Positions 2,000 through 20,711 of a DNA stretch of 40,001 bases are shown here, piece by piece (position 1 is the first letter of the stretch; each line of letters begins with the position of its first letter). The DNA is from Hassallia byssoidea VB512170 (GTDB lineage: Bacteria; Cyanobacteriota; Cyanobacteriia; Cyanobacteriales; Nostocaceae). The stretch covers positions 1 through 40,001 of the forward strand of contig NZ_JTCM02000059.1 of the NCBI RefSeq assembly GCF_000817785.2. Direction: 5' to 3'. A program made the translations under genes and the position numbers. Under the pieces are notes generated by a model. It saw nothing but the letters and a program-made list of their open reading frames with translations, searched no databases and was not told the DNA's origin.

Positions 2000-3082
2000 A
2001 TGGGAGAACCAAAACGCATTGGAATTCTGACTAGTGGTGGAGATTGCTCTGGTTTAAATGCTGCAATCAGAGCTGTAGTGTATTGCGCTGTGGGAACTTA
2101 TGGTTGGGAGGTTTTGGGAATTCGGCAAGCGACTTTAGGATTGATGGTACGTCCTCCACAATTCACAAAACTGGAAGTTGACCAAGTTAATACGCTATTA
2201 ACTGCTGGTGGTACAATGTTAGGAACAACTAACAAAGGCGATCCTTTTGCCTTCCCGATGGCAGATGGAAGTGTATGCGATCGCTCTAATGAAATTATTG
2301 CAGGCTATCACCAATTGAATTTAGATGCTTTAATTGGAATTGGTGGTGATGGTAGTTTGGCAATTCTCCGCCGACTTGCACAACAAGGTGGTATAAATTT
2401 AGTTGGTATTCCCAAAACAATTGATAACGATATTGGGATTACAGAACATGCGATCGGTTTTGATACAGCAGTAAATATTGCCACCGAAGCACTAGATCGC
2501 TTACATTTTACCGCTGCAAGTCATAGCCGCGTCATGATTTTAGAAGTGATGGGACGTGACGCAGGACACATCGCCATTGCAGCGGGAATTGCGGGGGGAG
2601 CAGATGTAATTTTGATTCCAGAAATTCCCTACACAATTGAGCATATTTGTCAAAGAATCAAAGAACAGCAAGAGAAAAACAAAAATTATTGTTTGATAAT
2701 TGTATCTGAGGCAGTTCGCACTCAAGAAGGTGAAAATGTCACAATTACAAATCGCTTAGGTCAATCTCGATATGGTGGTATTGGTGAATATTTAGCCGAC
2801 CAAATTATCCAGCGTATTAATGCAGAAACACGAGTTACAGTTTTAGGACATATTCAACGAGGTGGAACAGCTTCACCTTTGGATAGATTAGTCGCAGCAG
2901 CTTTTGGTGTAGCAGCGGTTAATTTGATTGCAGAGGGTAAATATGACCAGATGGTAACGTGGCAAAATCGTCAAGTTGTTAGCGTACCAATTGCCGAAGC
3001 GATCGCTCAATATAGAGCCGTCGATCCAAATGGTACTCTAGTTAAAACCGCTCGTGGTATCGGTATTTATTTAGGAGATTAA
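2000..3082 (+). CDS. pfkA: 6-phosphofructokinase
   Basis: It phosphorylates fructose 6-phosphate to the 1,6-bisphosphate in glycolysis. The 360-residue protein starts with the phosphofructokinase motif ILTSGGDCSGLNAAIR, has IGGDGS in the phosphoryl-donor loop near residue 115, PKTIDNDI near 138, and the substrate-site block VILEVMGRDAGHIA. In the usual numbering, glycine 104 (GGDG) with lysine 124 (PKTIDND) is a mixed signature: ATP enzymes of the E. coli type have Gly/Gly and PPi enzymes Asp/Lys. Gly/Lys is known in actinobacterial ATP-dependent enzymes, so ATP is the likelier donor, as an inference. ATG 2000 lacks a well-placed ribosome site; a GGAG at 1978-1981 instead fits a tiny start-stop ORF just upstream. 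Confidence 0.95.
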   Translation: MGEPKRIGILTSGGDCSGLNAAIRAVVYCAVGTYGWEVLGIRQATLGLMVRPPQFTKLEVDQVNTLLTAGGTMLGTTNKGDPFAFPMADGSVCDRSNEIIAGYHQLNLDALIGIGGDGSLAILRRLAQQGGINLVGIPKTIDNDIGITEHAIGFDTAVNIATEALDRLHFTAASHSRVMILEVMGRDAGHIAIAAGIAGGADVILIPEIPYTIEHICQRIKEQQEKNKNYCLIIVSEAVRTQEGENVTITNRLGQSRYGGIGEYLADQIIQRINAETRVTVLGHIQRGGTASPLDRLVAAAFGVAAVNLIAEGKYDQMVTWQNRQVVSVPIAEAIAQYRAVDPNGTLVKTARGIGIYLGD

Positions 3083-3121: not shown

Positions 3122-3157
3122 GTCTACTCCTACCCATTACCCATTACCTATTTAACT

Positions 3158-3200
3158 AATAACTCCCATCACAATTCGCCTTCATTTACAGCTTGATTGC
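3158..3200 (-). pseudogene. Degenerate copy of the 3' end of the aspartoacylase-type gene
   Basis: Read on the minus strand, this stretch encodes NQAVNEGE and then, with one base restored, FVMGVIS and a stop. The intact gene at 10900-12024 ends in NRAVNEGEFVLGVIQ and a stop. Over about 43 bp I count roughly 80% identity with one single-base gap. Nothing further upstream of the gene is recognisable here. The copy lies in direct orientation relative to the intact end, with the PIWI-RE island between the two, so it resembles a worn attachment-site duplication. Confidence 0.7.
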
Positions 3201-3435
3201 CTCGTTCCCAAGCGATGCAGCCACAGAACGCAAGTGCAGTGGGCTTCTGCCTTAATTTGTGTCTGCCAGGTAGATGCGAAACGCCTCACGCTCACCGATT
3301 GGCAGGAGAAGACTTTATCAAAGCCTCTGACATCTGTATGCAATGCCAATAGTTTTAATATAACTTAATCAAAATATCTATGCAAATCTAGGAATGCAGC
3401 TATACAATTAGAAAAATCGAGTTGAGGAAAAAGCA
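3201..3435. other. Left flank of the PIWI-RE island, no gene seen
   Basis: No ORF of note and no recombinase remnant can be recognised in this stretch. It should hold the promoter of the operon; the AT-rich part at 3345-3400 is the likeliest place, but I cannot name -35/-10 boxes with confidence. A Shine-Dalgarno-like GAGG lies at 3424-3427. Confidence 0.4.
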
Positions 3436-4689
3436 ATTTCAGAGTTAGTTAGCCCAAAAGAAGCATCGCAACGCCTGGGTGTGAGTGTGGATACTCTGAG
3501 GCGTTGGGAGGCAGCGGGAAAAATTAAGGCAATGAGAACGCCAACAGGACACCGAAGATATGACTTAACTTCATTAGTCACGGGCAATGAAGAAGTTAAT
3601 ACCTCTGCAAGGGTGATTTCAATCACAGAGGATACGCTGCAACAGATAGCAAAGGGTTTATGCAAGTATGAACAGCAAATCTTTAAAAGCCCTTCAGATT
3701 ATCCGAATGAATTGCAATTAGGCGTAGATAAGCTGGCACTTGCTTGTGTAATGGCGGGAGTAAGTCAACCGATACAAGGAGTTCCGGATTTTATTTCTAG
3801 ATGGGCGCAGATTCCCTTAAAAGAGTGGAATATACAGCTTGATTTTGCTGAAGAATTGCTTGAAGAACAACTAATAGAAGAGCAAAAACCGAGTGGATTT
3901 TGCATTGAAACAGCAGAAGAATATTTTGATGAATCGGGTAATTTCCAGAAACAAGTAATTAATGAGGTAATGACTAAAGCAGCACAAAAGCCTGAGTTAT
4001 ATACAAGTTTTAGACGTTATCTCATTGAACACCCTGTAATAACCAAGGGAGATTTAGATGTTGATAGCATTCTGCATTTTAAGCCCGTGCTAGAAATACT
4101 TAAGAATAGCTATGAAAAAGCTCCTGAATCTTACAAGTTAGATGGGATATTTTACTGCTGCGGTCATTGTGGCGGGTTAATGTATCTGAGCAAAAATGAT
4201 GAATTAAAGTGTGAAAATAAACATTGTGAAAAGCAAAACAAGCCTGAGAAAGCTTTCCCCACCGATGAAGATGATGAGGTTTTTTGGTTGAAGCCGGATT
4301 TACGATATTTTATTCATCGTCCAGGAAAACCAGAACTGAGATTAACAGAGAGATTGCGACAATTAAACCTAGAAGTGCAGCTATACCCTGAGCTTGATAA
4401 ATACGATTTACACTTGGTTTTTTCCGACAATATAGTTTGGGCAGTTGATGTTAAGTTTTGGGAATGTGCATATAATTTAGCGAAAAAAGTTGATAAGCCT
4501 ATTCCTAGACTTAAGCATCAGCCATACCAAGATTCATTCTTTGTCTTTCCTGATGAAATTCAAAGTTACGGTCAGGAATATCTGCAAGAATTTCGTACTT
4601 ACTGTACAGTTCCGCTTAAAAAGTATCAGGTAATGTTTGAAAGTGAATTTGTTAAGAAAGTTATGACTAAATTAGAGAAACACAAATGA
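3436..4689 (+). CDS. PIWI-RE-associated nuclease: HTH, zinc ribbon and PD-(D/E)xK domain
   Basis: First gene of the PIWI-RE operon. The N-terminus SPKEASQRLGVSVDTLRRWEA followed by TPTGHRRYDL is a MerR/IS607-TnpA-like winged helix, so DNA binding is expected. Counted from GTG 3481, a zinc ribbon has C227-x2-C230 and C244-x4-C249, and the C-terminal domain has D309, D323-V-K325 and K-rich helices, which fits a PD-(D/E)xK nuclease. Known pPIWI-RE islands include such a REase-fold nuclease. Start choice: no ATG, GTG or TTG precedes GTG 3481, yet the frame is open from 3412 and the residues before 3481 are the first HTH helix. ATT at 3436, eight bases after GAGG, gives a natural MSELVSPKEA start, so I place the start there (418 residues). 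The stop overlaps the next start as ATGA. Confidence 0.75.
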   Translation: MSELVSPKEASQRLGVSVDTLRRWEAAGKIKAMRTPTGHRRYDLTSLVTGNEEVNTSARVISITEDTLQQIAKGLCKYEQQIFKSPSDYPNELQLGVDKLALACVMAGVSQPIQGVPDFISRWAQIPLKEWNIQLDFAEELLEEQLIEEQKPSGFCIETAEEYFDESGNFQKQVINEVMTKAAQKPELYTSFRRYLIEHPVITKGDLDVDSILHFKPVLEILKNSYEKAPESYKLDGIFYCCGHCGGLMYLSKNDELKCENKHCEKQNKPEKAFPTDEDDEVFWLKPDLRYFIHRPGKPELRLTERLRQLNLEVQLYPELDKYDLHLVFSDNIVWAVDVKFWECAYNLAKKVDKPIPRLKHQPYQDSFFVFPDEIQSYGQEYLQEFRTYCTVPLKKYQVMFESEFVKKVMTKLEKHK

Positions 4690-7600
4690 GAAATACTTCC
4701 AAGTGGTATCAGCCATTAAAAACAGATTTAAACAAACATTTATGCGAGGTCGAATTAGGGCTGTATTTGTTAAATACCTTGGTTCCAGACGCTAGTGCTA
4801 ATAGTTTGTGGGTGCTGCTGACTGGATATGCGTATAATTTTGCAGAGTGCCAAAATTGGACAAATAATCACTATCAAATGTTGGCATCCGCTCGTCATCT
4901 ATTGCCACAATATCACAGTCCGGCTAACTGGGAAGAAGCCTTACAGCGTTATCAAGAATCCCCACCCGATATTCACGGTTACGAAATTTATCAGGTTGAT
5001 GAATATTGGCGATATCAATTGCGAACTAATATTACAGTTGCTAATAACAGATTTGAAATTTATAACTCTGCCTTAAATCTGCCAGTAGAGTTATCGCAAA
5101 GAAGTGATATACACTGGGCTAAAGCTGGAAAATATAAATGTGATGTCAAGGATAAAAAAGAAACAGTTGAAATAATTCCAGAAATTGCAAGTTTACCCAA
5201 ACCCCCACAGCACAATCTAGCTGGTGTGCAACAGAGAAATCCTCTGAAAGTAAGCTGGAAAGAACTAAGAAAAACAGCCGACTGGATGGATAATCAATTA
5301 GAAAAGCGGGGTCAAAAACCGCAGTGGATAAGACGTTTTAATCAAGTCAAGCTACAAATATTCAACGATAAACAAGAATTAATTGATGCAGAATATTTAA
5401 CTATCAATAAAATACTGCATCTAGTCGGGATGGTCTCTTCTGGTAAGTCCAACCTCATGAAAATATTAGCAGTATGGGGATGGCAAAATAAATTATGCGT
5501 AACCCTTGTAGTCACGGATGTGCTGCAAATTTTTGAATTGACCAAAATGTTTGACGAATTAGGAATTAATGATGTAGCTCCTATTTTAGGAAATTCTAAC
5601 AAAGTAAGCCATTTAAATAGATTGCACAGAGCCGTTTATAACTCTAATCGCAATCAGCCTTTTAAACAAGAGCATACTGGGTTTCAATGGCTAAGTAACA
5701 CCTGTTTATTGACATCATTTGTTCATCCGAAAATGAACACACAATTTGCAATGGGGACGCAGCCATGTTTTTCTTTAGAAACTATCGATACAAATGAAGA
5801 AGAATCAGAAGCATCAATCAAAACTAAAGTTTGTCCAGCTTACGGTGTATGTCCCTATCATAAAAAAGAACGTGATTTAGTTAACGCTTCTATCTTGATT
5901 GCCACACCTGGAAGTTTAGTTTACACCAGAGTACCACGAGCAATCAACCGAGAGAGCATTCTTTATTTTGAATTAGTTTGCAGACGCAGTGATTTGGTGA
6001 TTGTCGATGAAGTTGACCAACATCAGGCTTACCTAGATAAAGCATTTAGCCCTGATAAAACATTACGCAGACCGTCTAGAGATGCCTGGTTAGATAAACT
6101 TTACGATAATATTGAAGCTAAATTGAAGTATGAAAAGTCACAAGTTCTTGAAAATGAGCTTGTATCAAATTGGTGGAACGCTTGCCAGAAAGCAAAAGTA
6201 ACTGCCGATGAGATATATCACTTATTAAGCAAGGAAAATAGCTTATCTAAATGGCGCGAGAAAAAAAATTATTTTACCGATTGGTTATTATTAGGAGAGG
6301 TTGCCAATTTACTAACAACATCGGATAATACCAAAAATATCGAGCAATTTAATAATTTAATGCAACGTGTATTTGAGCCATATATTAAAGATTTAGATAA
6401 CGAGCATAATCCTTTATTTGCGCTAGCTAAAAAAGATAAAAAAGGTGCAGCAATTAAGGAATGGGTTGAAAAAACAGCAACCGTTCAATTGCCCCAAGAA
6501 AAACTTGCAGAAATTGCTCTAACACTAGAGTTTGCCTTGCTAGTCTGCGACTTGCAAGGCAAACTCTACTTTATGATGAACAAATGGCAACAGGTGCAAA
6601 GTACATTGAATTTAGATATATCAGATTCAATGTGGTTTGATTCTCCACCATCAGACTTTAATCCGATTATTCCAGCAATGCCAATGGGTAATCAATTAGC
6701 ATTTCAATACCACAAATCTTATAAAGAATCACTAGGCAGTTTACAGTTTTTCCGCTGCACAGGTGTTGGACGCTGGTTACTACTGAATTTTGATGAATTG
6801 TTCAAAGGAGATAATATTGCCAGTCCCCACCTATTGCTGATGTCAGGAACAAGTTATGCAGGAAAGTCTCCTGCATACCATGTTGATGTGCCTGTGTCTG
6901 GAGTGCTTGTACCAGATACGTCACAGCAAATAAAAATACACTCAGAGTTGTTAAAATTATCTAATAAACAACAGCCTATTTCTGTCTCCGGAGCCGGAGA
7001 TAATAAACGTCGTAATTTAGAAGAAATAGTTAAACAACTGGTAGAAAAAGAATATCTAAGTCAAAAAATTAAGGAATTGCAAGGTAGAAAAATTTTATTA
7101 GTTGTCAACAGCTACGAGCAAGTTGATTGGGTTTATCAGTGTCTAGTAAACTTGGGATGGAAAGATAAAGTTATAGCTTTATCCCCAGATGATGAAATCT
7201 CTGATGAATGGGATGATAATCGTAACTTTTTGCAGCGAGGACAATCACCAGATTTTGCTACCAGACCGGAAGTAATTTTAATAGTTCCACTAAAAGCGAT
7301 TGAGCGAGGTCATAATATTGTCGATAAGGATGGAAAAGCAGTAATTGGAGCAGCTTATTTTTTAGTTTTACCTCACCCCATTCCTGATGATTTATCTTAT
7401 GCTATTCACTCGATAAACCGTTGGGCAATTGACAATTATAAAAAAGCTAAAGGGGAAAATTTAAATAAATTAGGTAAGAATTTTCGTGATGCTGCTTACG
7501 AACAGTGGTGTCATTTCTTACACCTATCAGTCAGATTGACAACTCTCCCAGATGATGACCGTAATGCAGTGTATTGGGATATCATTGTTTCTCTTTGGCA

Positions 7601-7877
7601 AGTGATAGGTCGTTTAATTCGTGGTAATGCCGATGCACAAGTTTTTTGGTGTGATGCTAAGTTTGGCATAAATACCGCCAAAAATGAGGATGGCAAAGAA
7701 GATACTTCTGCTAGTAGTGTGCTAGTTGGGATTGTATATTTACTCCGTCCTTATTTTGAAAATGATCCAGAAATTCCTATATACGATCGCGCTATTGTTC
7801 AATCTCTTTATCGTCCTTTTTATCAGGCGATCGCTAACACTATAAACCTTTCTGGTTTACCCCAAATCAATCTTTAA
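4686..7877 (+). CDS. DinG/XPD-like Fe-S superfamily 2 helicase of the PIWI-RE system
   Basis: The product has 1063 residues. Walker A is GMVSSGKS at 248-255. Between the Walker motifs are four cysteines, C340, C361, C383 and C389 (the last two in VCPAYGVCPYH), the arrangement of the 4Fe-4S cluster of DinG/XPD helicases. Walker B is DLVIVDEVDQH with D441-E442-V-D444, motif III-like LLLMSGTS near 720, and motif VI QVIGRLIRG at 972-980. The first 240 residues are an accessory domain that I cannot assign with certainty. In described pPIWI-RE loci a DinG-type helicase is one of the three core genes and is thought to open duplexes or R-loops for the PIWI protein and nuclease. ATGA overlap with the nuclease gene implies translational coupling. 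The frame is intact. Confidence 0.82.
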   Translation: MRNTSKWYQPLKTDLNKHLCEVELGLYLLNTLVPDASANSLWVLLTGYAYNFAECQNWTNNHYQMLASARHLLPQYHSPANWEEALQRYQESPPDIHGYEIYQVDEYWRYQLRTNITVANNRFEIYNSALNLPVELSQRSDIHWAKAGKYKCDVKDKKETVEIIPEIASLPKPPQHNLAGVQQRNPLKVSWKELRKTADWMDNQLEKRGQKPQWIRRFNQVKLQIFNDKQELIDAEYLTINKILHLVGMVSSGKSNLMKILAVWGWQNKLCVTLVVTDVLQIFELTKMFDELGINDVAPILGNSNKVSHLNRLHRAVYNSNRNQPFKQEHTGFQWLSNTCLLTSFVHPKMNTQFAMGTQPCFSLETIDTNEEESEASIKTKVCPAYGVCPYHKKERDLVNASILIATPGSLVYTRVPRAINRESILYFELVCRRSDLVIVDEVDQHQAYLDKAFSPDKTLRRPSRDAWLDKLYDNIEAKLKYEKSQVLENELVSNWWNACQKAKVTADEIYHLLSKENSLSKWREKKNYFTDWLLLGEVANLLTTSDNTKNIEQFNNLMQRVFEPYIKDLDNEHNPLFALAKKDKKGAAIKEWVEKTATVQLPQEKLAEIALTLEFALLVCDLQGKLYFMMNKWQQVQSTLNLDISDSMWFDSPPSDFNPIIPAMPMGNQLAFQYHKSYKESLGSLQFFRCTGVGRWLLLNFDELFKGDNIASPHLLLMSGTSYAGKSPAYHVDVPVSGVLVPDTSQQIKIHSELLKLSNKQQPISVSGAGDNKRRNLEEIVKQLVEKEYLSQKIKELQGRKILLVVNSYEQVDWVYQCLVNLGWKDKVIALSPDDEISDEWDDNRNFLQRGQSPDFATRPEVILIVPLKAIERGHNIVDKDGKAVIGAAYFLVLPHPIPDDLSYAIHSINRWAIDNYKKAKGENLNKLGKNFRDAAYEQWCHFLHLSVRLTTLPDDDRNAVYWDIIVSLWQVIGRLIRGNADAQVFWCDAKFGINTAKNEDGKEDTSASSVLVGIVYLLRPYFENDPEIPIYDRAIVQSLYRPFYQAIANTINLSGLPQINL

Positions 7878-7893
7878 TTAATTGCAAATCATT

Positions 7894-9240
7894 ATGCCAT
7901 ATAAAACAATCCGTTTCTGCTCTTTAAAATTAAAATCTGACTTGCCAAAGCAAGAGTTTTATGTAATGAAGTTTCCCGAAGAAGCAAAGGATGTCATTAG
8001 AAGGCTTGCAGCTAAACAAAATGGGACATCATTTGATAAAACGAGTCTTCCAGTCAAGTCACTTTACAAAGGGTTAAGACTTGCCCCTGGTTTAATTCAC
8101 ATTGGTAAAATATCGCCAAAGAGAGATAACGATGAAGAAACTAATAAAGAGAAAGAGGAATTTTGGTTATATAGTCCTCAGCAACTAGACACAAAAAAAT
8201 TGTCGGCAATTTTAGCTTATTGGATAGAAACAGAATTTCCAGATAAACCTAGTAAACGAGGGCAGGTTATCAGTGCTGAAGAAAAAGAATTAGCCACTAG
8301 TTATTTGTCTGAGGAGAAATTGATTTGGGAGAAGAAAGAGGTATCTTATACAAGTAAGTTTCCTCCTCATCCCAATAAAACTCCTAATTTATCTAACAGT
8401 GATTATGTTTGGTTGCCTCACATCATAGCTGCAAAACTAAGTCAACCAAAGCTAAAGTTTGAAGTTGATGGACAACAACTCCAATTCTACCGTTCTGTTC
8501 CATCTAACGGAAAAGGAGCAGAGTTAATTTCTTGGCAGCCATTAAATTACACAGAAAACGGACAAACTTACTATTATTCAATAGTTCTAACACTGAGTAT
8601 CATCTTGGAGCCTGGTTTGCCTTATCCCCGATTTGATATTACACCAAGTATTAGACGCTGGCTAAGTATCAACGATTGTAAATTATCAAATAATCACGGC
8701 AGTAACGCCTACATCCGTGCCAAACTGAATTGGGGTAAAGGACTAAATCCTGATGATTTGACCGAATATTTTATTAATTGCCGAATGGTTTTAAAAAAAG
8801 GTCTAGCCAACTGGGATGAAAATTTAGGCGAACTATTAGCAAAATTAGATATTATTTCAAATAATCCGCAGGAAATTTTAGCTAATCCATCGTCAGCATT
8901 CAACGATAAACCTAATATTGGGATTACCTATAAAGAAGGCATGAAACCTAAGCATAAAGTGGCGAAAGGAGTGCCTACAGTCAATACTGATCAACTTTTG
9001 AAGCAAATAGATAATGTATTAACAGAATATTTTGAACCCATATATTGTCAACGTCAGAATTCTAAAACAAGCAAGCAACCGAGTCAGTTCTTTGACTTGA
9101 AAAAGCCGGAAAATAATTTTGATGAGCCTCTGTACAAGAAAAAAGCAGAAACAGAAAAAACATTTGAAGTAACTAAAAAGAATGAATTTAAAAAAAAAAA
9201 AAAAAAATTAAAAACTGTCTCAAGAAAAAAACTGAGTTAG
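7894..9240 (+). CDS. pPIWI-RE protein, N-terminal half (frame ends after A18 tract)
   Basis: Starts at ATG 7894 (MPYKTIRFCSLKL), 16 bases after the helicase stop; a TTG at 7882 would add four residues and is less likely. The half is 448 residues long and corresponds to the N-terminal module of pPIWI-RE proteins (KGLRLAPGLIHIG, FDITPSIRRWLS, GSNAYIRAKLNWG). Near its end the protein becomes lysine-rich and runs into AAA codons of an 18-A tract at 9190-9207, then reads 11 further codons and stops at 9238-9240. The next ORF continues the same protein in another frame: 7894-10799 is one base short of a multiple of three, so one extra A (or two fewer) restores a single protein of about 969 residues, a normal size for the family. 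Confidence 0.72.
   Translation: MPYKTIRFCSLKLKSDLPKQEFYVMKFPEEAKDVIRRLAAKQNGTSFDKTSLPVKSLYKGLRLAPGLIHIGKISPKRDNDEETNKEKEEFWLYSPQQLDTKKLSAILAYWIETEFPDKPSKRGQVISAEEKELATSYLSEEKLIWEKKEVSYTSKFPPHPNKTPNLSNSDYVWLPHIIAAKLSQPKLKFEVDGQQLQFYRSVPSNGKGAELISWQPLNYTENGQTYYYSIVLTLSIILEPGLPYPRFDITPSIRRWLSINDCKLSNNHGSNAYIRAKLNWGKGLNPDDLTEYFINCRMVLKKGLANWDENLGELLAKLDIISNNPQEILANPSSAFNDKPNIGITYKEGMKPKHKVAKGVPTVNTDQLLKQIDNVLTEYFEPIYCQRQNSKTSKQPSQFFDLKKPENNFDEPLYKKKAETEKTFEVTKKNEFKKKKKKLKTVSRKKLS
9190..9207 (+). repeat. Homopolymer A18 at the frame switch of the PIWI-RE gene
   Basis: Eighteen consecutive A follow gaattt. It is by far the longest homopolymer I see in the window, and the two halves of the PIWI-RE frame meet exactly here. 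It is a strong slippage site for RNA polymerase, for replication, and also for sequencing chemistry. Confidence 0.95.
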
Positions 9241-9272
9241 AATCAGATTATCAGAAGCGCAGAGAAGAACTT

Positions 9273-10799
9273 GTGAGAAAACAAGAGATCGAGCGTCTTA
9301 ACTGGAAACCAAAATTAGAAGAAACAGAAGAAGATTTCCAATTACGATTAAAGCAGTTTAATGATAACCTTAGTACAGCACAAGCAAAATTGCGGAGTGC
9401 TATTCGTTCATCCATAGGTGAACAATTGACAATTTGGATTTGGCACATTAAATCAGAAAATCTAGAGAAACGTCTCAAAGCTATAAAGTATTGCCTGGGT
9501 TTGCCAAAAGCAGAACCAGGAAGTCATTCTTTTCCAGAAGGTTTAACAGTAAATATCTGCGTCAGTGAAGTTGCTTCCTTGGCACAACGTTTAGATTTAT
9601 CTCCAGAAAGTAAACCTAACAGCAAAGAGCGAGAGAAGGCTATCAACAAGCGCAAAAGTGAAGTAGCTAACCTTGTTGAATCACCCAAATCTGAATTACT
9701 AGGAAAAGTGGGAATTTGGTTTGAACTTTACGATAAAAAACATTGGAAATTTGTACAAAAAGATAAAGAAGGAGAACAAAAAAAATATTGGCTAGCACCT
9801 TGGGGAGACCCTAAACGTGCTATTCGTATGGGTTTTTCTGACGAGGGATTTGTCAGCAAATTTATTACCCCAGAGCGAAAAAGTTATTATCAAAAAGCAA
9901 TATGTAGCTTTGTTGATCTGTTGCGTTCTCTAGGGGTGCGCTTAGAGCCATCTAAGATACAACTTTCCAATGTAGATAAAGATACTCCTATTAATGAAGT
10001 GGGGCTACGGCTGATAAATCGTACTTCTCAAACTGGGGAAAATGGAAAACCACAGTTAATTCCTGTGATGGTCAAAATGTGTTCTTTGACTAACGAAACA
10101 AGCGCTATTTTCCCAGGTATCACAGAATGGATACCCTATGATGAAGCATTGACACGCATAAACAATGATGGAGATGGGTCTATAAATAATGATGATAATG
10201 GTAAAGCTAGAATCCGCACATTTATTGAGTATGTTCTAAAGACACCAGAGCTTCGGGGAAAGCCAACAATACTTTACTGTGAAGCAGAGAATATCCGTCA
10301 AGTCTGGACATGGCTACAAGATACACAAATTGACTCTCGTGGATTATCTTTTGCAGAACGAAAAAATCAGGTTTTCGATGCCATGCCCGAATTACGTGTT
10401 ATCCGAATACGTTCTGGTAATGAAACAGCAGAATGGTATGGAATAGATGGGGAGAAATTATCTGGATTTACTACTGGTATATTTAAAAATTCAGATAACG
10501 ATCGCGTATTTTTTAGTATTGGGGAGAAGCCTGCAACAATGAAGGTTCCCAAAGATTTCTCTAGAATTGATAAACCTGGAAAAGTTTGGCATCATCCTTC
10601 TATTATGGAGATTACAATAGGTTACAGGCAAAAAGATGACGACCCCTTAGAATTAGCTGCGATCGCCCACCAATCTCGAAAGGGAGTTTTGCAATATGAA
10701 GACTTTTTACAAGTACCTAGAGTCCTGCATTACGCTAAACAAATGGGTGATTATGTCCTCATGCTAGATGATGATGATGATGAGCAATCTGATAACTGA
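9273..10799 (+). CDS. pPIWI-RE protein, C-terminal half with the PIWI/RNase H-like domain
   Basis: The frame is open from 9192, inside the A tract; GTG 9273 is the first ordinary start but has no good ribosome site, so it is probably the continuation of the preceding half. The part before GTG (TELESDYQKRREEL) and after it is a charged, helical, coiled-coil-like stretch. Further on, DPKRAIRMGFSDEGFVSKFITP and the region up to the end (VGLRLINRT, TILYCEAENIRQVWTWLQD, LRVIRIRSGNETAEW, PSIMEITIGY) agree with my recollection of pPIWI-RE proteins: the MID-like and RNase H-like domains with conserved Arg and Glu. I cannot verify a complete DDx catalytic set by eye; several members are thought to be inactive as slicers. 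It ends in an acidic DDDDDE tail from a GAT repeat. Confidence 0.72.
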   Translation: MRKQEIERLNWKPKLEETEEDFQLRLKQFNDNLSTAQAKLRSAIRSSIGEQLTIWIWHIKSENLEKRLKAIKYCLGLPKAEPGSHSFPEGLTVNICVSEVASLAQRLDLSPESKPNSKEREKAINKRKSEVANLVESPKSELLGKVGIWFELYDKKHWKFVQKDKEGEQKKYWLAPWGDPKRAIRMGFSDEGFVSKFITPERKSYYQKAICSFVDLLRSLGVRLEPSKIQLSNVDKDTPINEVGLRLINRTSQTGENGKPQLIPVMVKMCSLTNETSAIFPGITEWIPYDEALTRINNDGDGSINNDDNGKARIRTFIEYVLKTPELRGKPTILYCEAENIRQVWTWLQDTQIDSRGLSFAERKNQVFDAMPELRVIRIRSGNETAEWYGIDGEKLSGFTTGIFKNSDNDRVFFSIGEKPATMKVPKDFSRIDKPGKVWHHPSIMEITIGYRQKDDDPLELAAIAHQSRKGVLQYEDFLQVPRVLHYAKQMGDYVLMLDDDDDEQSDN

Positions 10800-10899: not shown

Positions 10900-12024
10900 C
10901 TACTGAATAACTCCTAGTACAAACTCACCTTCATTCACAGCTCGATTGCTAGAAGTATCATAAACCAATCCATCTTGTTCGCAGTAGACATCAATTACAA
11001 CAGGTAACTTACCCTCTTTATTAAAACTAAGAATTTGATAAAGTCGTTCTCCAGCTTTAACTTCGCTACCCAATTCTACCCTTGATTGAATCATTCCCCC
11101 GGAGGAAGCATAATACTTTATCACATTACTTCTAGCTCGAAAACACATTTTTTGAGAAATGCTTTCATCCACAGTTAAATCAAGCAAAACACCTTTTTTA
11201 ATTAAATAATTTTTCACACCCCGCACACCTTTAGCAACTGAATCAGGAATCATTTGCATTCCCGTACCCAGTTCAAGCGTCCAAGCTTCCACATCAAACT
11301 GAATTTCTCTCCCAAGTTGTTGAAAACAATCTTCCAGCGCTAACCAAGGTTTGATAAACGCTTCATCAAAAGCATCACCATCATATTTATCAAGTATAAA
11401 TCCGTGTTCGAGTAAAAAGTATTTAGCGCTTTCTTCGCGATTTCGGAAATAATAAAGATAATTTATGCCTTGATTTGAAGCACTGTGTAAATCAATCAAG
11501 TAATCTGCATCTAAACTGAGAGATTGTAGTTGATAGCGAAACCGCTCAGTATAAGGCACGCTACTAGGAGAATTAATTTTCTCTAAAAGTTCTCCAAACT
11601 TATCCTTGATTCTGCTGAGATAATTCTCTCTGACAACCTCAATATCAAGATTAAGTTGAGATTTAGCAAAAGCTAGTAAATCATCAGCTTCCTTTTCATA
11701 ATCCCAAAAAATGCGGTTCCAATCCTTCGCTTCATAAACGCAATATCTACCAGAAGAAAAAACATGCGATCGCTCATTAGTTCCCATCGGATTACAAACC
11801 GGAACCAGCCAAACTTCCCCAATTAAATCCGTATCATTTATCGTCTGTAAAAACTCAATAAGCTGATAAATCACAGCATTACCAGCAATTTCCGCACCAT
11901 GCAGATTAGATTGAATGTATACCTTCTTACCAACATTAGCACCAACAAACTTGTAAACTTGCAGCGATAAAACATCACCACTAGCCATTTGACGCAACTT
12001 AATCGTCACAATCTCTGGAATCAT
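10900..12024 (-). CDS. Succinylglutamate desuccinylase/aspartoacylase family peptidase
   Basis: A zinc-dependent carboxypeptidase-like hydrolase of the M14/AspA group. Near the N-terminus it has SNLHGAEIAGN (His and Glu zinc ligands), and later LIDLHSAS with the third His; a C-terminal beta-rich part follows (VELGSEVKAGERLYQI). I place the start at ATG 12024 (MIPEIVTIK), 374 residues. A longer frame to 12102 would add 26 residues read from a gcgcctttgcg repeat and would overlap the phosphatase gene, so it is unlikely. The substrate is unknown; members deacylate N-acyl amino acids. It follows the histidine phosphatase gene by 46 bp on the same strand, so the two may be co-transcribed. Its 3' end abuts the PIWI-RE island and is duplicated on the other side at 3158-3200. 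Confidence 0.85.
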   Translation of the reverse strand: MIPEIVTIKLRQMASGDVLSLQVYKFVGANVGKKVYIQSNLHGAEIAGNAVIYQLIEFLQTINDTDLIGEVWLVPVCNPMGTNERSHVFSSGRYCVYEAKDWNRIFWDYEKEADDLLAFAKSQLNLDIEVVRENYLSRIKDKFGELLEKINSPSSVPYTERFRYQLQSLSLDADYLIDLHSASNQGINYLYYFRNREESAKYFLLEHGFILDKYDGDAFDEAFIKPWLALEDCFQQLGREIQFDVEAWTLELGTGMQMIPDSVAKGVRGVKNYLIKKGVLLDLTVDESISQKMCFRARSNVIKYYASSGGMIQSRVELGSEVKAGERLYQILSFNKEGKLPVVIDVYCEQDGLVYDTSSNRAVNEGEFVLGVIQ

Positions 12025-12070
12025 CCTATATACTCTTTGCGCCTTTGCGCCTTTGCGTGAGATTATTTTC

Positions 12071-12709
12071 TTAAGTCCCCGGTAAATTCCGCAACCGCTC
12101 ATCTTGATGAGTACGGTCTGCTAACACTTTTAACAGAGGACCATGTGAAGTAAATTCTACAACACTAACCGACCCAACCGGACATCCCAAACGAAAACGA
12201 AAGCGTCCGACATCAATTCCCAACAGACTGCACAGCATAATTCTGATAGTTGCCTTGTGGGAAACAATTAACACATTGCCATCGCGATAAAGCTGCTTAA
12301 TTTCTTCAATAACCTGAGTAGATCGAGAAGCGATCGCAACAGCCATTTCCCCACCAGTCGGTGCATACCACGCCGGATCTGCTAACCAGCGGATATAATC
12401 ATCGTGAAATTCTTTACTTACCGCTTCGGGTGTGCTTCCTTCCCACTTACCGTAGTGAATTTCCTTTAAACCATCCCGCAGTTGTGGTTGCATTTCAATA
12501 GCTTCACACAAAGGTCTTGCAGTTGCCAAAGTGCGGTGCATCGGACTGCAAAAAATTGCCTCCCAAGGAGTAGAACTGTATGAAGAAGCAAAAGATGAAG
12601 CCATTTCCATACCATCTGGTGTCAGTTCTGGATCTAGGGAACCGCAAAAAGCATTATTGCGACTCCATTCAGTTTGTCCGTGACGCAAAAAATAAAGAGT
12701 TAAAGTCAT
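12071..12709 (-). CDS. Histidine phosphatase family protein (phosphoglycerate mutase-like)
   Basis: 212 residues. The catalytic loop LRHGQTEWSRNN near residues 8-19 carries the phosphohistidine, FCSPMHRTLATARPL provides the Arg/phosphate pocket, KEIHYGKWEGSTPE holds the acid-base Glu, and LIVSHKATIRIML carries the second catalytic His. This is the branch-1 histidine phosphatase fold; whether it acts on phosphoglycerate, sugar phosphates or a cofactor precursor cannot be told. The start ATG at 12709 sits directly beside a ggatttt tandem repeat that fills its upstream region, and no ribosome site is visible. The final residues (HQDERLRNLPGT) end 46 bp before the peptidase gene. Confidence 0.88.
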   Translation of the reverse strand: MTLTLYFLRHGQTEWSRNNAFCGSLDPELTPDGMEMASSFASSYSSTPWEAIFCSPMHRTLATARPLCEAIEMQPQLRDGLKEIHYGKWEGSTPEAVSKEFHDDYIRWLADPAWYAPTGGEMAVAIASRSTQVIEEIKQLYRDGNVLIVSHKATIRIMLCSLLGIDVGRFRFRLGCPVGSVSVVEFTSHGPLLKVLADRTHQDERLRNLPGT

Positions 12710-14409: not shown

Positions 14410-14826
14410 CTAGGAAGAATTTGTTAATTGAATCAACTGTTCAGGTGTAAGAATTCGCAAAGTTGTAACCGGAAAATCTTGAGGATTGCGAGTAACAATT
14501 GCATCTAATTGATTAACTAGCGCAGTGCTGTATTGAATTGCATCTTCAAAATCTCGAAAGTTAGCAGTTAATGCCATTCTAATTACTGCTTCATTAACAG
14601 TAGCAACTTGGCAATATGTGACCAACCAGTTCAAAAAATCTGTTGTCCATTCTCGACCTCGTGATTTGCGGATAATGTAATAAAGGTCACTGAAGGTTGA
14701 GGCTGAGATATAACCTTCAATTTGACCTTGCTCAACCAGTAATAATACTTGTTGACTTGCCTCAAAATGAGGCTGACGTTCAAGGGCTACGTCTACGATA
14801 ACGTTGGTATCTAGAAGTACTATCAC
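14410..14826 (-). CDS. PIN-domain ribonuclease toxin (VapC-like)
   Basis: Predicted Mg-dependent endoribonuclease. From GTG 14826 the protein has 138 residues and starts MIVLLDTNVIVDV, placing the first catalytic Asp at residue 6; further acidic residues follow in NFRDFEDAIQYSTAL and LDAIVTRNPQDF, as expected for the PIN fold. A longer frame from 14856 exists, but the GTG overlaps the stop of the upstream antitoxin gene as GTGA, which is the normal arrangement for such pairs, so I choose the shorter form. No obvious defect is visible; RNA target unknown. Confidence 0.85.
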   Translation of the reverse strand: MIVLLDTNVIVDVALERQPHFEASQQVLLLVEQGQIEGYISASTFSDLYYIIRKSRGREWTTDFLNWLVTYCQVATVNEAVIRMALTANFRDFEDAIQYSTALVNQLDAIVTRNPQDFPVTTLRILTPEQLIQLTNSS

Positions 14827-15104
14827 AAATCGTATTTTTCCTTCAATCCTTCCCATCTCGCCTGTTCCGGGTCAAAGTCAGGCGGAACGGGAGGAGCATT
14901 TTCTAGTAACTCCCTAAGTGATTTTACCTTAGATTTTCTCTTTGGTTTCTCTTGTTGTGTCTCGGTTTCGGGATTTGTGGAACTCGCACTCTCAACTGTC
15001 TGCAAAACAATCACTTCCACATCTCCAGGTGGCATTTTAACTGGTTCGGTAATTACTAAATTACCTGCGTCGTCAATTTTTGCTTTGAGTTTGTAAGCTT
15101 GCAT
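14823..15104 (-). CDS. Antitoxin partner of the PIN-domain toxin
   Basis: 93 residues. The N-terminal half (MQAYKLKAKIDDAGNLVITE) has the short beta pattern of a swapped-hairpin or related DNA-binding domain, the middle is a Lys/Glu-rich linker, and the C-terminus (DFDPEQARWEGLKEKYDL) is a helical tail of the sort that wraps around PIN toxins. Assignment rests on position: it directly precedes the toxin with a four-base GTGA overlap. Such antitoxins usually repress their own promoter, which would lie in 15105-15200; no operator is evident. The exact antitoxin family is not certain. Confidence 0.75.
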   Translation of the reverse strand: MQAYKLKAKIDDAGNLVITEPVKMPPGDVEVIVLQTVESASSTNPETETQQEKPKRKSKVKSLRELLENAPPVPPDFDPEQARWEGLKEKYDL

Positions 15105-16201: not shown

Positions 16202-16262
16202 AGATTAATGCGCTTAACTGAAATAACCTAAACTTAGATATGAACTACTAGGAGTGGAGAAG

Positions 16263-16907
16263 ATGTTGTTGGAATTAAAGCGCATCCAAGTTCCACCGGG
16301 ACAAAGAGTGCTGCTGAAAGATGTAACCTGGCAAGAATTCAAAACTATTCTCGAAGATTTAGGAGAACACCGTGCAGCCAGAATTGCATACGACAGCGGA
16401 ATACTAGAAATTATGGCACCATTGCCAGAACACGAATATGATAAAGAAATTATTAGCGATTTAGTTAAAGCGCTTTTGGAAGAACTGGATATTGAGTTTA
16501 GATGTCTTGGTTCTACCACTTTCAAAAATCAAGCAATGGCTCAAGGTATAGAACCAGATCAGTGTTTTTATATCCAACATGAATCCAAGATTCGTGGAAA
16601 GAAGCGACTAGATTTAACAGTAGATCCCCCTCCAAATTTAGCTTTAGAAGTTGATATTACTTCTCGCACTCATCTTAATATTTATCAAGCATTAAAAGTT
16701 CCAGAACTTTGGCGTTTTGAAAAAGGTAAGCTGCAAATTAATATCCTGCAAAATGGAATTTATGTAGAATCTCAAGAAAGCTTAAATTTTCCTCGATTTG
16801 CGCTGAGAGAGGTGATTCCTCAATATCTTGAGCGAAGCACAACAGCAGGTAGAAATGCAACCCTCAAAGCTTTTCGTCTTTGGGTGCGACAACAGATGCA
16901 ACAGTAA
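16263..16907 (+). CDS. Uma2 family (DUF820) PD-(D/E)xK nuclease-like protein
   Basis: 214 residues from ATG 16263, chosen because AGGAG lies nine bases upstream; a GTG at 16254 would add three residues. The order of motifs is that of Uma2 proteins: ARIAYDSGILEIMAPLPEHE, then DITSRTHLNIY with the LALEVDIT acidic strand, and the aromatic PELWRFEKGKLQI. The fold is restriction-endonuclease-like and the family is greatly expanded in cyanobacteria, often next to mobile DNA; its true activity is not settled. It is the first gene inside the second island, right of the metH remnant. Confidence 0.85.
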   Translation: MLLELKRIQVPPGQRVLLKDVTWQEFKTILEDLGEHRAARIAYDSGILEIMAPLPEHEYDKEIISDLVKALLEELDIEFRCLGSTTFKNQAMAQGIEPDQCFYIQHESKIRGKKRLDLTVDPPPNLALEVDITSRTHLNIYQALKVPELWRFEKGKLQINILQNGIYVESQESLNFPRFALREVIPQYLERSTTAGRNATLKAFRLWVRQQMQQ

Positions 16908-16938
16908 GGATATATGAGTTGCGATCGCCCTAACCGTT

Positions 16939-17066
16939 AAGTTTTTGGCGTTGCTGATTGAAAATATGAATTAGTCTCACGCACTCGTCGCAAAGACGCA
17001 AAGTTACAAAGAAAAAGAAGCATAATTTTATAATTTCATATTTTGATTCACCAACGCCAAGTTTTT
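16939..17066. mobile_element. Miniature inverted-repeat element with 8-bp target duplication, copy 1
   Basis: The element spans 16947-17058 (112 bp). Its ends are inverted repeats starting ggcgttgctgattg, with 21 of 24 positions matching, and it is flanked by the direct repeat aagttttt at 16939-16946 and 17059-17066. It codes for nothing. The central part has the cgcaaagacgcaaag tandem motif. An 8-bp duplication with ggcgttgctg-like ends recalls IS6-type transposition, but I cannot name the parent element. Confidence 0.85.
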
Positions 17067-20000
17067 TATACAGGCGATCGCCTAACCCACGATTTATTAT
17101 CAGATGAAACTACATATGAAATTATGCCACGCATCTTTGACAACATAGATTTGCAACTGCTACCGATTTTGCGAGAGACTCTGAAAGTCTCTTACAGGTC
17201 AGATTTTTGCGTTGGTTACTTCAATCTCAGAGGTTGGCGGAAAATAGATGATTTAATTGAACAATATCTTGGCAGTGAAAAGGCTTGTTGCCGTCTGCTG
17301 ATTGGAATGCAAAGCTTACCCAGTGATGAAGTTCATGCAGCATTCACCCTTGGTAATGGTGAAGGACGTATTGACAACAGTGCGATCGTCCGCTTCAAAA
17401 AACGGATGGCAGCCGAATTTCGCAAGCAGTTAACTATTGGTGCCCCTACGAATTTAGATGAAGCGGGGTTGCAACGGTTAAGTCATCAGCTAAAAACAAA
17501 GAAACTAATTATTAAACTGTTTCTGCGTCACTCCCTCCACGCCAAATTATACTTGGTGCATCGCAATGACCCCAATACTCCGACCGTGGGATTTTTGGGT
17601 AGCAGTAACCTGACTCTGCCCGGACTGGCGAAACAAGGGGAATTGAATGTTGATATTTTAGATCACGATGCTTGCAATAAGCTGCAAAAATGGTTTGATG
17701 ACCGCTGGAAAGATTATGGCTGTGTAGATATTTCCCAAGAACTGGCAGATATCATTGATGAGAGTTGGGCGAGAAAAGAATTAATTCCGCCTTACCACAT
17801 CTACTTAAAGATTATTTATCATTTGTCTCATGAAGCGATCGCAGGTTTATCTGAGTTTCGCATCCCGCGTGAATTTAATAATTTATTTGATTTCCAAAAA
17901 GCAGCAGTGCAGCTAGCAGCGCGTCATGTCACCAAACGCGGTGGTGTGTTGGTGGGGGATGTAGTTGGTTTGGGGAAAACTTTAGTAGGAACTGCCCTAG
18001 CTAAAATATTACAAGAAGATTGTTTGTTAGAAACGCTAATTATTTGCCCGAAAAACTTGGTGCAAATGTGGCAGGAATATGTAGATAATTATAAGTTATA
18101 TGCGAAAATTTTGCCGATAAGTAAGGTACAAAGTAAGTTACCAGAATTACGCCGCTACCGAGTTGTATTAATTGATGAAAGTCACAATTTGCGTAATCGG
18201 GAAGGTAAAAGATATAGAGCGATCGCAGAATATGTTAAAAATAACGAAAGTAAATGCATTCTTTTATCTGCCACTCCCTACAACAAAACTTATCTTGACC
18301 TTTCTTCCCAACTGCGGTTATTTGTCCCAGAAGACGAAGATTTGGGGTTTCGACCAGAAGCTTTAATCAATGAACTAGGTGGCAGTTCTGTAGGAGAATT
18401 AGAGTTTATCAGAAGGCATCAATGTTCTGTACGCTCTTTAGCGGCTTTTGAAAAAAGCGAACATCCCGATGACTGGCGAGAGTTAATGAAACGTTACATG
18501 GTGCGGCGAACGCGATCGTTTATTAAAGAGAATTATGCCCAAACTGATGAAACCGGACGTAAATATTTAGAATTTTCCGATGGCAGACGTTCTTATTTTC
18601 CAGACCGCATTCCTCGTACTGTCAAGTTTACTTTAGAAGGTTCGGAAACTGACCTTTATTCTCGCCTTTATTCTGAATCAATCGTAGAGATAATAAATCA
18701 ACTGAACCTACCTCGTTATGGGTTAGGAAATTACGTTATCAGCAAACACAAACAACCACTCACCGACAACGAACAGCGCCAGCTTAATGCATTATTTCGT
18801 GGCGGACGTAGGTTAATGGGATTTTCCCGTACTAATTTATTTAAACGTTTAGAAAGTAGTGGCTTTGCTTTTATCCAATCAATTGAACGCCATATCTTAC
18901 GGAATTTTATTTATTTATATGCTTTAGAACAGGGACTTGATATTCCTATTGGTACTCAGGATGCAGAGTTATTAAACACAAGTAATAATGATGAAGATGC
19001 AGATTTAGCAGCAGTTTTGTTTGATACGGAAACCGAAGATTATGTTGATGATTCTCTGCAAGAGTCAACAGACACAGAAATAACAGAAAAAAGTTTTCGA
19101 CAAAAAGCAGAGTCAATTTACACTGAATATGCAACTCGATATCAACGGCGGTTTAAGTGGTTGCGTTCTACATTATTTGATATTAAAAGGTTGAAGAAGG
19201 ATTTGTTAACAGATGCCAAAGCATTAATTAATATGTTACAAAACTGTGGCGAGTGGAACCCCAAAGAAGATGAAAAACTTGCCGCTTTGGTCGAACTGCT
19301 AACAAAAACTCACCCCAACGATAAGGTACTCATTTTCACTCAATTTGCAGATACAGTACGCTACCTTGCTGATAATTTACAAGCGATAAAACTTACCAGT
19401 GTCGCAGGGGTGACGGGTCAATCAAAAGACCCTACGGAACTCGCGGTCAGGTTTAGTCCTATTAGTAATGGAAAAGGTGAGAAAGTAACAAATAATCAGG
19501 AATTACGTATTTTAATTGCCACCGATGTTTTGAGTGAAGGTCATAATTTACAAGACTGCGCGATTATTGTTAATTGGGATTTACCGTGGGCAATTATTAG
19601 ATTAATTCAAAGGGCGGGACGGGTAGACAGAATTGGACAAAATGCAGACAAAATTCTTTGTTATTCTTTTCTACCAGCAGCGGGTGTAGAACGTATTATT
19701 AATTTACGCTTAAGATTACGCCAAAGACTACAAGAAAATGCTGAGGTAGTGGGAACTGATGAGGCATTTTTTGAAGATGATTCTACTCAGGTAATTCTCG
19801 ACCTCTACAATGAAAAATCTGGGATTTTGGATGGCGAAGAAGATACAGAGGTAGACTTGACCTCGGAAGCATTTCAAATTTGGAAAAAAGCCACTGATGA
19901 CAATCAGGCTTTGAAAAAGATGATTGAAGACATGCCAAATGTGGTTTATTCTACCCGCGCCCATACTCCCGAAACTGTGCAACCGGAAGGGGTATTACTT

Positions 20001-20513
20001 TACATGAAAACCACCGAAGGTAATGATTCTTTGATTTATGTTGACCGCGAAGGAAATAACGTCACTCAGTCGCAATTAGCAGTTTTAAAAATGGCGGCTT
20101 GTGAAGAAAATACTCCCGCTATTCCCAGAGATGAACAGCACCACGAGTTAGTTAAAAAAGGTGCTGAACTGATTGCTGAGGAAGAAAAAAATATGGGTGG
20201 TCAGTTGGGAAGACCATCAGGTGCAAGATTCCGCACTTATGAACGATTAAAAAGTTACGTTCAGGAAATGAAGGAGACGTTATTTATTACTGAAGAACTG
20301 CTAAAGGCAATTGATGATATTTATCGTTACCCGTTAAGACAGTCAGCAATTGATACTTTAAATCGGCAATTAAGAAGCGGCATTAATAATCAGCAATTGG
20401 CAGAATTGGTAGTAGCTTTGCGGATGGATGACCGTTTGTGTTTTGTCAGTGAAGAAGTAGAGAAACGAGAACCATCAATTATTTGTTCGCTGGGATTATT
20501 TCCGGAAAAGTGA
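17043..20513 (+). CDS. PLD-domain plus SNF2-type helicase
   Basis: 1156 residues if the TTG at 17043 is used. The N-terminal third carries a phospholipase-D-type motif, HAKLYLV (H166, K168) followed by GFLGSSNLT, a nuclease or DNA-end-binding fold. The helicase part has Walker A GDVVGLGKT with K312, DESH at 378-381, ATPYNKT, and motif VI QRAGRVDRIGQ at 856-866, as in SNF2/RapA translocases. The C-terminal 250 residues are unassigned. The first codons (17043-17058) lie inside the right end of a miniature element, so the native start may have been ATG 17124 (MPRIFDNI). With the following nuclease and methyltransferase genes it forms a defence-type module. Frame intact. Confidence 0.87.
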   Translation: MIHQRQVFYTGDRLTHDLLSDETTYEIMPRIFDNIDLQLLPILRETLKVSYRSDFCVGYFNLRGWRKIDDLIEQYLGSEKACCRLLIGMQSLPSDEVHAAFTLGNGEGRIDNSAIVRFKKRMAAEFRKQLTIGAPTNLDEAGLQRLSHQLKTKKLIIKLFLRHSLHAKLYLVHRNDPNTPTVGFLGSSNLTLPGLAKQGELNVDILDHDACNKLQKWFDDRWKDYGCVDISQELADIIDESWARKELIPPYHIYLKIIYHLSHEAIAGLSEFRIPREFNNLFDFQKAAVQLAARHVTKRGGVLVGDVVGLGKTLVGTALAKILQEDCLLETLIICPKNLVQMWQEYVDNYKLYAKILPISKVQSKLPELRRYRVVLIDESHNLRNREGKRYRAIAEYVKNNESKCILLSATPYNKTYLDLSSQLRLFVPEDEDLGFRPEALINELGGSSVGELEFIRRHQCSVRSLAAFEKSEHPDDWRELMKRYMVRRTRSFIKENYAQTDETGRKYLEFSDGRRSYFPDRIPRTVKFTLEGSETDLYSRLYSESIVEIINQLNLPRYGLGNYVISKHKQPLTDNEQRQLNALFRGGRRLMGFSRTNLFKRLESSGFAFIQSIERHILRNFIYLYALEQGLDIPIGTQDAELLNTSNNDEDADLAAVLFDTETEDYVDDSLQESTDTEITEKSFRQKAESIYTEYATRYQRRFKWLRSTLFDIKRLKKDLLTDAKALINMLQNCGEWNPKEDEKLAALVELLTKTHPNDKVLIFTQFADTVRYLADNLQAIKLTSVAGVTGQSKDPTELAVRFSPISNGKGEKVTNNQELRILIATDVLSEGHNLQDCAIIVNWDLPWAIIRLIQRAGRVDRIGQNADKILCYSFLPAAGVERIINLRLRLRQRLQENAEVVGTDEAFFEDDSTQVILDLYNEKSGILDGEEDTEVDLTSEAFQIWKKATDDNQALKKMIEDMPNVVYSTRAHTPETVQPEGVLLYMKTTEGNDSLIYVDREGNNVTQSQLAVLKMAACEENTPAIPRDEQHHELVKKGAELIAEEEKNMGGQLGRPSGARFRTYERLKSYVQEMKETLFITEELLKAIDDIYRYPLRQSAIDTLNRQLRSGINNQQLAELVVALRMDDRLCFVSEEVEKREPSIICSLGLFPEK

Positions 20514-20528
20514 CATTGTAAAAATATT

Positions 20529-20620
20529 AGGACTTACGCTTGCATTGCCTGAAAAACCTAATTTGTCGTAGCGGTAATTCATGAATTACCGCTACTTCAA
20601 AACTTTTTGGCGTAAGTCTT
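20529..20620. mobile_element. Small palindromic element with aggacttacgc ends
   Basis: Ends aggacttacgc and gcgtaagtctt are inverted repeats. In the middle lies a perfect 28-bp palindrome at 20568-20595 (half-site gtagcggtaattca). It is non-coding, begins 16 bases after the helicase gene stop, and may end that transcript. No clear target duplication could be found. Confidence 0.7.
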
Positions 20621-20711
20621 AAATATAATGTAAATAAACTTAATATAAACATTTATAAATTTGGACACAGGAAAGAGAAAATAATTTTAATTAATTTCTC
20701 ACAAAGTACTT

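Follow-up and report, generated by a model that had tools for sequence, protein, structure and literature searches.

We analysed a 40,001-nucleotide stretch of DNA from Hassallia byssoidea VB512170 (contig NZ_JTCM02000059.1, positions 1 to 40,001; hereafter the window), and positions 3436-10799 of this stretch are a three-gene pPIWI-RE module, in which a nuclease (gene 1), a DinG-like helicase (gene 2) and a PIWI protein (gene 3) follow one another. Modules of this kind have been predicted since 2013 and are poorly studied. Module membership is not new, because passages of the 2013 paper of Burroughs, Iyer and Aravind (PMC3702460) already describe the module, its gene order and the fusion of a MerR-type helix-turn-helix (HTH) to the restriction endonuclease (REase). 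What goes beyond the known module is a predicted AUU start of gene 1 that is conserved in a clade, a BldC-like HTH with a candidate operator, and a PIWI gene split at a run of 18 adenines (A18). The gene content and motifs, the lack of a canonical start, the boundary of coding constraint at an ATT codon, the A18 split and the insertion are properties of the sequence itself. Taken together, we consider it likely that this is a horizontally acquired pPIWI-RE module in which gene 1 cuts, expression is restrained and the PIWI protein is reduced or switchable. A clade with plasmid-borne members, a conserved predicted AUU start and a candidate operator offers handles on how the nuclease is kept in check.

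Module identity and catalytic residues

The family had been named in a first-pass annotation of the window, and the profile searches agree with it: all six Pfam models of the module (pPIWI_RE_REase, pPIWI_RE_Y, pPIWI_RE_Z, pPIWI_RE_X, MID_pPIWI_RE and RNaseH_pPIWI_RE) match above their gathering cut-offs, PADLOC names the three genes, and the predicted fold of an intact relative has Argonautes as its best matches. The E-values of the six models range from 5e-12 (MID) to 2e-55 (X), therefore the matches are not due to chance. Gene 1, taken from its canonical start, matches pPIWI_RE_REase (9e-31), pPIWI_RE_Y (7e-26) and MerR (1.1e-7), and gene 2 matches pPIWI_RE_Z (1.6e-40). The open reading frame (ORF) at 7882-9240 matches pPIWI_RE_X (1.6e-55). 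The product of 9273-10799, on whose similarity to PIWI-RE the proposal depended, matches RNaseH_pPIWI_RE (1.4e-44) and MID_pPIWI_RE (5.1e-12), so that the X, MID and RNase H domains are all present in the order of the family. The PADLOC matches are PprRE (2.8e-50), PprDinG (9.3e-254) and PprPIWI in two ORFs (4.7e-51 and 4.1e-82).

The same annotation described three genes in tight order. The order, the spacing and the ORF positions hold, including the extension of the nuclease to the ATT at 3436: genes 1 and 2 overlap by 4 nucleotides, and genes 2 and 3 are 4 nucleotides apart by their listed starts. However, there are four ORFs rather than three genes, because the PIWI gene is interrupted at A18 between X and MID. 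The features are the following:

3153..3200, unstranded: left copy of an imperfect direct repeat of about 48 base pairs, found by pairwise alignment; it equals the 3' end of the downstream AstE-like gene
3376..3395, + strand: candidate operator, a degenerate 10-bp direct repeat (ATCTATGCAA/ATCTAGGAAT) in the same place as the strong repeats of the relatives; 7/10, not significant
3424..3427, + strand: Shine-Dalgarno-like GAGG, 8 nucleotides ahead of the ATT, in 13/13 genomes
3436..4689, + strand: gene 1, BldC-like MerR HTH, pPIWI_RE_Y, zinc ribbon and PD-(D/E)xK REase; predicted AUU start 3436, canonical start 3481
4686..7877, + strand: gene 2, DinG-like helicase, pPIWI_RE_Z, with Walker A, four cysteines and DEVD; its ATG overlaps the stop of gene 1
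7894..9240, + strand: gene 3a, PIWI X-domain ORF; listed from TTG 7882, ATG 7894 matches the beginning of the relatives
9190..9207, + strand: A18 homopolymer at the frame break, in a lysine-rich spacer between X and MID
9192..10799, + strand: gene 3b, MID and RNase H (PIWI) ORF; its frame is open from 9192, with GTG 9273 as the earliest canonical start
10902..10948, unstranded: right copy of the direct repeat, within the 3' end of the AstE-like gene 10900-12102 (- strand)

The nuclease and helicase motifs read earlier from the window are conserved among the relatives. The nuclease residues D309, D323 and K325, which are D324, D338 and K340 when counted from the ATT, are invariant in 10 aligned sequences including the window, as are the zinc-ribbon cysteines C241, C242, C245, C259 and C264. 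In the helicase, the Walker A motif (G248-S255), the four cysteines (C340/C361/C383/C389) and the DEVD (D441-E442-V443-D444) are invariant in 6 aligned sequences including the window. The DPKRAIRMG, CEAENIRQVW and ETAEW blocks are present in the PIWI part. Searches by sequence gave no convincing solved relative for either the helicase or the MID-RNaseH protein. We rejected a plasmid replication unit: the helicase has a weak Rep3_C match (1.6e-4, 43 residues), but PprDinG covers nearly the whole protein. No structured RNA or transfer RNA was over threshold within the window.

The fold was assessed on an intact relative from Crocosphaera (L077), modelled with AlphaFold, rather than on the protein of the window. 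Foldseek returned 11 matches at E <=0.001 for this model, all of them Argonaute or PIWI entries and one a chain of the SPARDA complex, and a DdmD-DdmE chain stood at rank 14 (E 0.011). Two points weigh against relying on this comparison: the model is weak (mean pLDDT 57.5) and its TM-scores with Argonautes are low, 0.15-0.31.

Regarding catalysis, passages of PMC3702460 state that the PIWI catalytic residues are retained only in a subset of the family. Neither the window nor any aligned relative has an aspartate in the strand (PVMVKM) that, as we place the site, is presumably the first of the RNase H domain. The second site reads CEAEN in the window, CDAQN in seven Nostocales relatives and CHAQN in one further relative (L060). 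Because the first RNase H aspartate is apparently missing, the PIWI domain here probably cannot slice on its own, and since the catalytic residues of gene 1 are kept, it is most likely gene 1, rather than PIWI, that makes the cut. In an alignment of 8 PIWI sequences (the ORF filter dropped 12/19 loci), R378, R380 and R469 are present in 8/8 and E446 in 7/8; the mapping of these positions to the strictly conserved arginine and glutamate that name the family is ours.

The A18 split of the PIWI gene

The PIWI gene of the window does not lie in a single frame. Positions 9190-9207 are 18 A, the X frame ends at 9240 and a different frame stays open for MID-RNaseH between 9192 and 10799, which gives two ORFs of 452 and 535 open codons. 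The length of the tract modulo three sets the product, since two of the three classes end at about 440-450 residues and the third reaches about 970. Across the 7.5 Mb of the genome no A/T run other than A18 reaches 14, and a single other one, an A11, reaches 11. Runs of at least 16 are present in 14/208 genomes of the family, including that of the window.

Among the close relatives with a complete gene, X and MID-RNaseH are in one frame in 10/10 (L014, L054-L060, L077 and L078); in an eleventh (L082) they are in one frame as far as the contig end, and the contigs of L079 and L085 end within X. None of the 8 relatives' genes measured has an A run longer than 8; a T9 occurs in the X part of L078. 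In the L077 model, X and MID are separated by three helices (residues 426-512), and by our reading of the alignments A18 falls in the counterpart of this predicted spacer in the window. We discarded a conserved programmed frameshift, since the tract is private to this strain and no close relative has it, which does not point to a conserved slippage site.

Long A tracts usually leak through slippage. In passages of PMC4256274, transcriptional slippage on the A11 of Citrobacter rodentium tssM1 gives around 20% of frameshift product, and passages of PMC1088944 report A8-A10 runs at the slippage sites of insertion sequence elements of Nostoc PCC 7120. From these precedents A18 would be expected to leak by slippage. 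As slippage should then give some full-length PIWI, by analogy the protein is probably reduced or switchable in this strain rather than cleanly lost. We found no mention of an A-tract split of a pPIWI-RE gene in the literature passages and titles covered.

An alternative that we hold possible, though doubtful, is that the operon is decaying, with A18 as an ordinary frameshift that knocked out PIWI and the remainder to follow. The break is indeed private to the strain, and other pPIWI-RE genes are broken as well: gene 1 of one related operon (L055 in genome G509, 6711-7915) carries a frameshift that separates its Y domain from its zinc ribbon, and the RNase H matches of G042, G340 and G542 contain an internal stop. 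These broken operons count against our main reading. On the other hand, apart from the break the two halves have no stop in 452 and 535 codons, genes 1 and 2 retain their motifs, and long A tracts tend to be leaky (PMC1088944, PMC4256274, in part). Furthermore, the halves are no more diverged from L077 than is an intact relative, as the window shares 47% (X) and 53% (MID-RNaseH) identity with L077, and the Nostoc copy L080 shares 40% and 43%. The comparison does not favour constraint throughout, because the window is less like the outgroup L086 (X 30%, MID-RNaseH 36%) than L080 is (42% and 43%); the values for L077 are 30% and 34%.

It is rather doubtful that A18 is a phase-variation switch, with replication slippage toggling PIWI within the population. 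The tract far exceeds every other tract of the genome (the next A/T run being A11) and lies within the predicted helical interdomain spacer, but no relative carries a tract, so that a history of switching cannot be read. It seems unlikely to us that sequencing or assembly gave A18 a wrong length and that the gene is in fact unbroken. Homopolymers are error-prone and the complete close relatives are intact in 10/10; however, even with its exact length misread a long tract would probably be real, and a general homopolymer error is unlikely because A18 is the sole such run in the genome. Finally, we give very little credence to PIWI functioning as two polypeptides, X and MID-PIWI, in the manner of short Argonautes with a separate partner: the break does lie between domains in a predicted helical spacer, but the second ORF has its earliest canonical start (GTG 9273) 32 nucleotides beyond the first stop, no clear ribosome site was seen by eye ahead of it, and every complete close relative is unsplit.

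The start codon of gene 1 and its HTH

From the upstream in-frame stop, gene 1 of the window has no ATG, GTG or TTG until codon 16. The same holds throughout the clade that carries the HTH: in 13/13 distinct genomes the first of these codons is at codon 16, 18 or 21, an ATT is at the same place with a GAGG ending 8 nucleotides before it, and in-frame stops lie close upstream of the ATT. In this count the contigs of L059, L058, L056 and L054, which are the same as those of L080, L081, L083 and L084, were counted once each; L021, L025, L087 and L088 have no gene 1 match, and L089-L093 were left out. Of the more distantly related operons in which gene 1 gave a match, 10/10 have an ATG at most 33 nucleotides from the upstream stop, a set that includes L086 (the same as L060, with no MerR HTH and an ATG start).

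The substitutions place the coding boundary at the ATT. Across codons 2-15, the trio formed by the window, Nostoc L080 and Crocosphaera L077 shows 16 synonymous versus 7 non-synonymous differences, with 20/26 base changes at position 3, and across the five codons ahead of the ATT the same trio shows 0 synonymous versus 5 non-synonymous differences. Coding constraint begins at the ATT. Moreover, starting at the ATT completes the HTH, the Pfam MerR match going from 1.1e-7 (profile positions 11-38) to 4.9e-13 (positions 2-38). Gene 1 thus appears, as predicted from these comparisons, to start at an AUU codon conserved in the clade. An ATT/GTT codon further upstream was rejected as the start, since it is ACT in L079 and variable elsewhere.

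We regard it as very unlikely that the nuclease starts later than the AUU, giving a protein without the first helix of the HTH, or that it is entered by an upstream frameshift. A later start would agree with the RefSeq record of the Nostoc edaphicum CCNP1411 copy, which begins at a later GTG, and with the rarity of AUU starts; Escherichia coli infC and pcnB do begin with AUU. Two further points count against the AUU start. The rarer start CTG is at codon 14 in 9/13 genomes (it is absent in the four of Crocosphaera/Cyanothece), and the 13 genomes form three identity groups, so that the effective sample for the conservation of the ATT is small, approximately three independent samples. But codons 2-15 are constrained, the next ATG, GTG or TTG varies between genomes (16, 18 or 21), and the in-frame stops near upstream in 13/13 speak against entry by a frameshift. 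The AUU start also shows how automatic annotation can remove an HTH, as the RefSeq records of two close relatives differ in their start, that of Nostoc sp. TCL26-01 being at the ATT and that of N. edaphicum CCNP1411 at the GTG. Judged by the titles and abstract openings listed and the passages covered, we found no mention in the literature of an AUU start for pPIWI-RE.

The HTH itself is BldC/Xis-like in the predicted model. Its best NCBIfam family is HTH_BldC (1.2e-9), with 37.8 bits and thus below the cut-off of 77; an IS607 transposase model also matches. In Foldseek, the HTH part of the gene 1 model matches the BldC-DNA structures 6ama and 6amk with probability 1.00, a root-mean-square deviation (rmsd) of 1.6-1.9, 37-42% identity and E 0.009-0.025, and BldC structures occupy ranks 2-7 and 9. 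Sorted by E-value, Can2 comes first, with a match of 283 columns and an rmsd of 12.8. Several observations tell against a purely BldC-like reading: no Foldseek match of gene 1 reaches E 0.001, the AlphaFold model is weak (mean pLDDT 62.7), the phage Xis structure 4j2n is nearly as close as BldC (probability 1.00), and in L077 an excisionase-type NCBIfam domain passes its cut-off and HTH_BldC does not. Because of the resemblance to Xis and the excisionase domain of L077, BldC-like DNA binding is not the sole reading.

According to passages of PMC5859096, BldC protomers bind one 9-bp direct repeat each, head to tail. Upstream of the operon we found direct repeats at a lag of 10 with at least 8/10 matching positions in 12/13 genomes, and in 11 of those 12 they were equalled by at most 10/200 shuffles (22/200 in L085). 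The exception is the window, whose own repeat has 7/10, with 132/200 shuffles as good or better. The first-pass annotation had taken the HTH as a hint of self-regulation. The BldC-like fold and the direct repeats of the relatives favour this suggestion indirectly, and the degenerate repeat of the window does not; therefore, autoregulation through promoter repeats can well be inferred for the clade but only weakly for the copy of the window. In the literature passages and titles covered there was no mention of BldC-type repeats for pPIWI-RE.

Acquisition, function and relation to known systems

The module is sparsely distributed. RNaseH_pPIWI_RE has one copy in the genome and matches in 0/14 control genomes; across the phylum it is present in 12/386 sampled genomes and, across the family, 16/217 genomes match the MID-RNaseH protein at E <=1e-10, this genome being included in both counts. 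In 4/4 genomes of the same genus (G300, G445, G446 and G447), era and the AstE-like gene are close together and the operon is absent. Direct copies of the AstE 3' end at 3153-3200 and 10902-10948 flank the operon, and the four empty sites carry one copy; the flanking pair is gapped, was found by pairwise alignment and is not among the best 20 of 24 repeat families. This arrangement looks like integration at the 3' end of the gene. No integrase was noticed among the ORFs inside the insertion. Plasmids of Nostoc sp. TCL26-01 (typed as non-mobilizable) and N. edaphicum CCNP1411 (typed as conjugative) carry close relatives, with a tyrosine recombinase near both copies. A phage or virus origin was rejected, as no relative was found in viral contigs or phage records at the sensitivity used.

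The phosphofructokinase gene at 2000-3082 adjoins the operon. It has no protein match in 3/4 of the same-genus genomes (loci L071-L074) and a match of 32 residues in the fourth (L073, genome G445); short DNA remnants of it are found in L071, L073 and L074. The era and AstE genes are retained. Elsewhere in the window, 16254-25633 holds defence-type genes, namely a Uma2-like nuclease (PDC-S17), a PLD-SNF2 helicase (HKD+Snf2 / DrmD-like), a YhcG nuclease (PDC-S02) and a type IIG-like restriction-methyltransferase. At 14410-15104 (- strand), a PIN-domain protein follows a small ORF that has no Pfam match, and the two may form a toxin-antitoxin pair. About 40-50 base pairs at 21790-21839 resemble the AstE-adjacent region of G300 and G447 and may be a dispersed repeat.

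We propose that the module was gained by horizontal transfer and that its PIWI-RE protein would hold a guide or sense an RNA-DNA hybrid on invading transcribed DNA, of a plasmid or a phage. The DinG-like helicase would then open the R-loop and the zinc-ribbon PD-(D/E)xK nuclease of gene 1 would make the cut. In the clade, we predict that expression is restrained at two levels, by the BldC-like HTH of the nuclease acting on the 10-bp direct repeats of the operon promoter and by translation of the nuclease from an AUU codon. In this strain, slippage of RNA polymerase on A18 would give some full-length PIWI beside the X-only fragment. Guide use, R-loop targeting, autoregulation and slippage are the steps that we infer. 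R-loop or duplex restriction is itself a prediction of the 2013 paper (PMC3702460, in part). Only tentatively do we suggest three stacked brakes, in which BldC-like self-repression, weak AUU translation that may vary with initiation-factor activity, and A18 slippage dosing PIWI would act together. If this were true, the choice of start codon and RNA polymerase slippage would help a PIWI defence system to avoid self-harm.

Among the literature matches listed, the sole dedicated experimental study of a pPIWI-RE protein is that of PsPIWI-RE of Pseudomonas stutzeri. In passages of that study (PMC10991935), it is an active guided nuclease that needs D525 and D610 and performs RNA-guided DNA cleavage and DNA-guided RNA cleavage. 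The same passages suggest a link to DNA replication rather than defence, and the knockout is sensitive to ciprofloxacin, both of which count against our proposal. That the module serves DNA replication or repair is nevertheless quite unlikely in our opinion, given its patchy spread (12/386 phylum genomes), the empty sites in 4/4 same-genus genomes, the plasmid-borne relatives and the defence genes in the neighbourhood.

Compared with known systems, the window shares with the module of PMC3702460, as described in its passages, the REase - DinG - PIWI order, the tight spacing, all the named domains and the N-terminal MerR-type HTH. It differs from it in the PIWI split by A18, and the word 'frameshift' is absent from the main text of that paper; the clade differs in a BldC-like HTH with direct repeats upstream in the relatives and in a REase gene with a conserved, predicted AUU start. 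PsPIWI-RE belongs to the same PIWI family, whereas the PIWI of the window has no aspartate in the presumed first strand and a glutamate where seven close relatives have an aspartate, PsPIWI-RE itself being outside this alignment. DdmDE is alike in combining a non-slicing PIWI protein with a helicase and a nuclease against plasmids, but the families are different and DdmD joins helicase and nuclease in one protein. In passages of PMC5859096, BldC has the same HTH fold and binds short direct repeats in promoters; however, it is free-standing and uses 9-bp repeats, whereas the HTH of gene 1 forms part of a nuclease and the candidate repeats are of 10 bp. Finally, tssM1 (PMC4256274, in part) is likewise broken at an A tract and gives short and full-length products, and the slippage measured there is what we would expect of A18.

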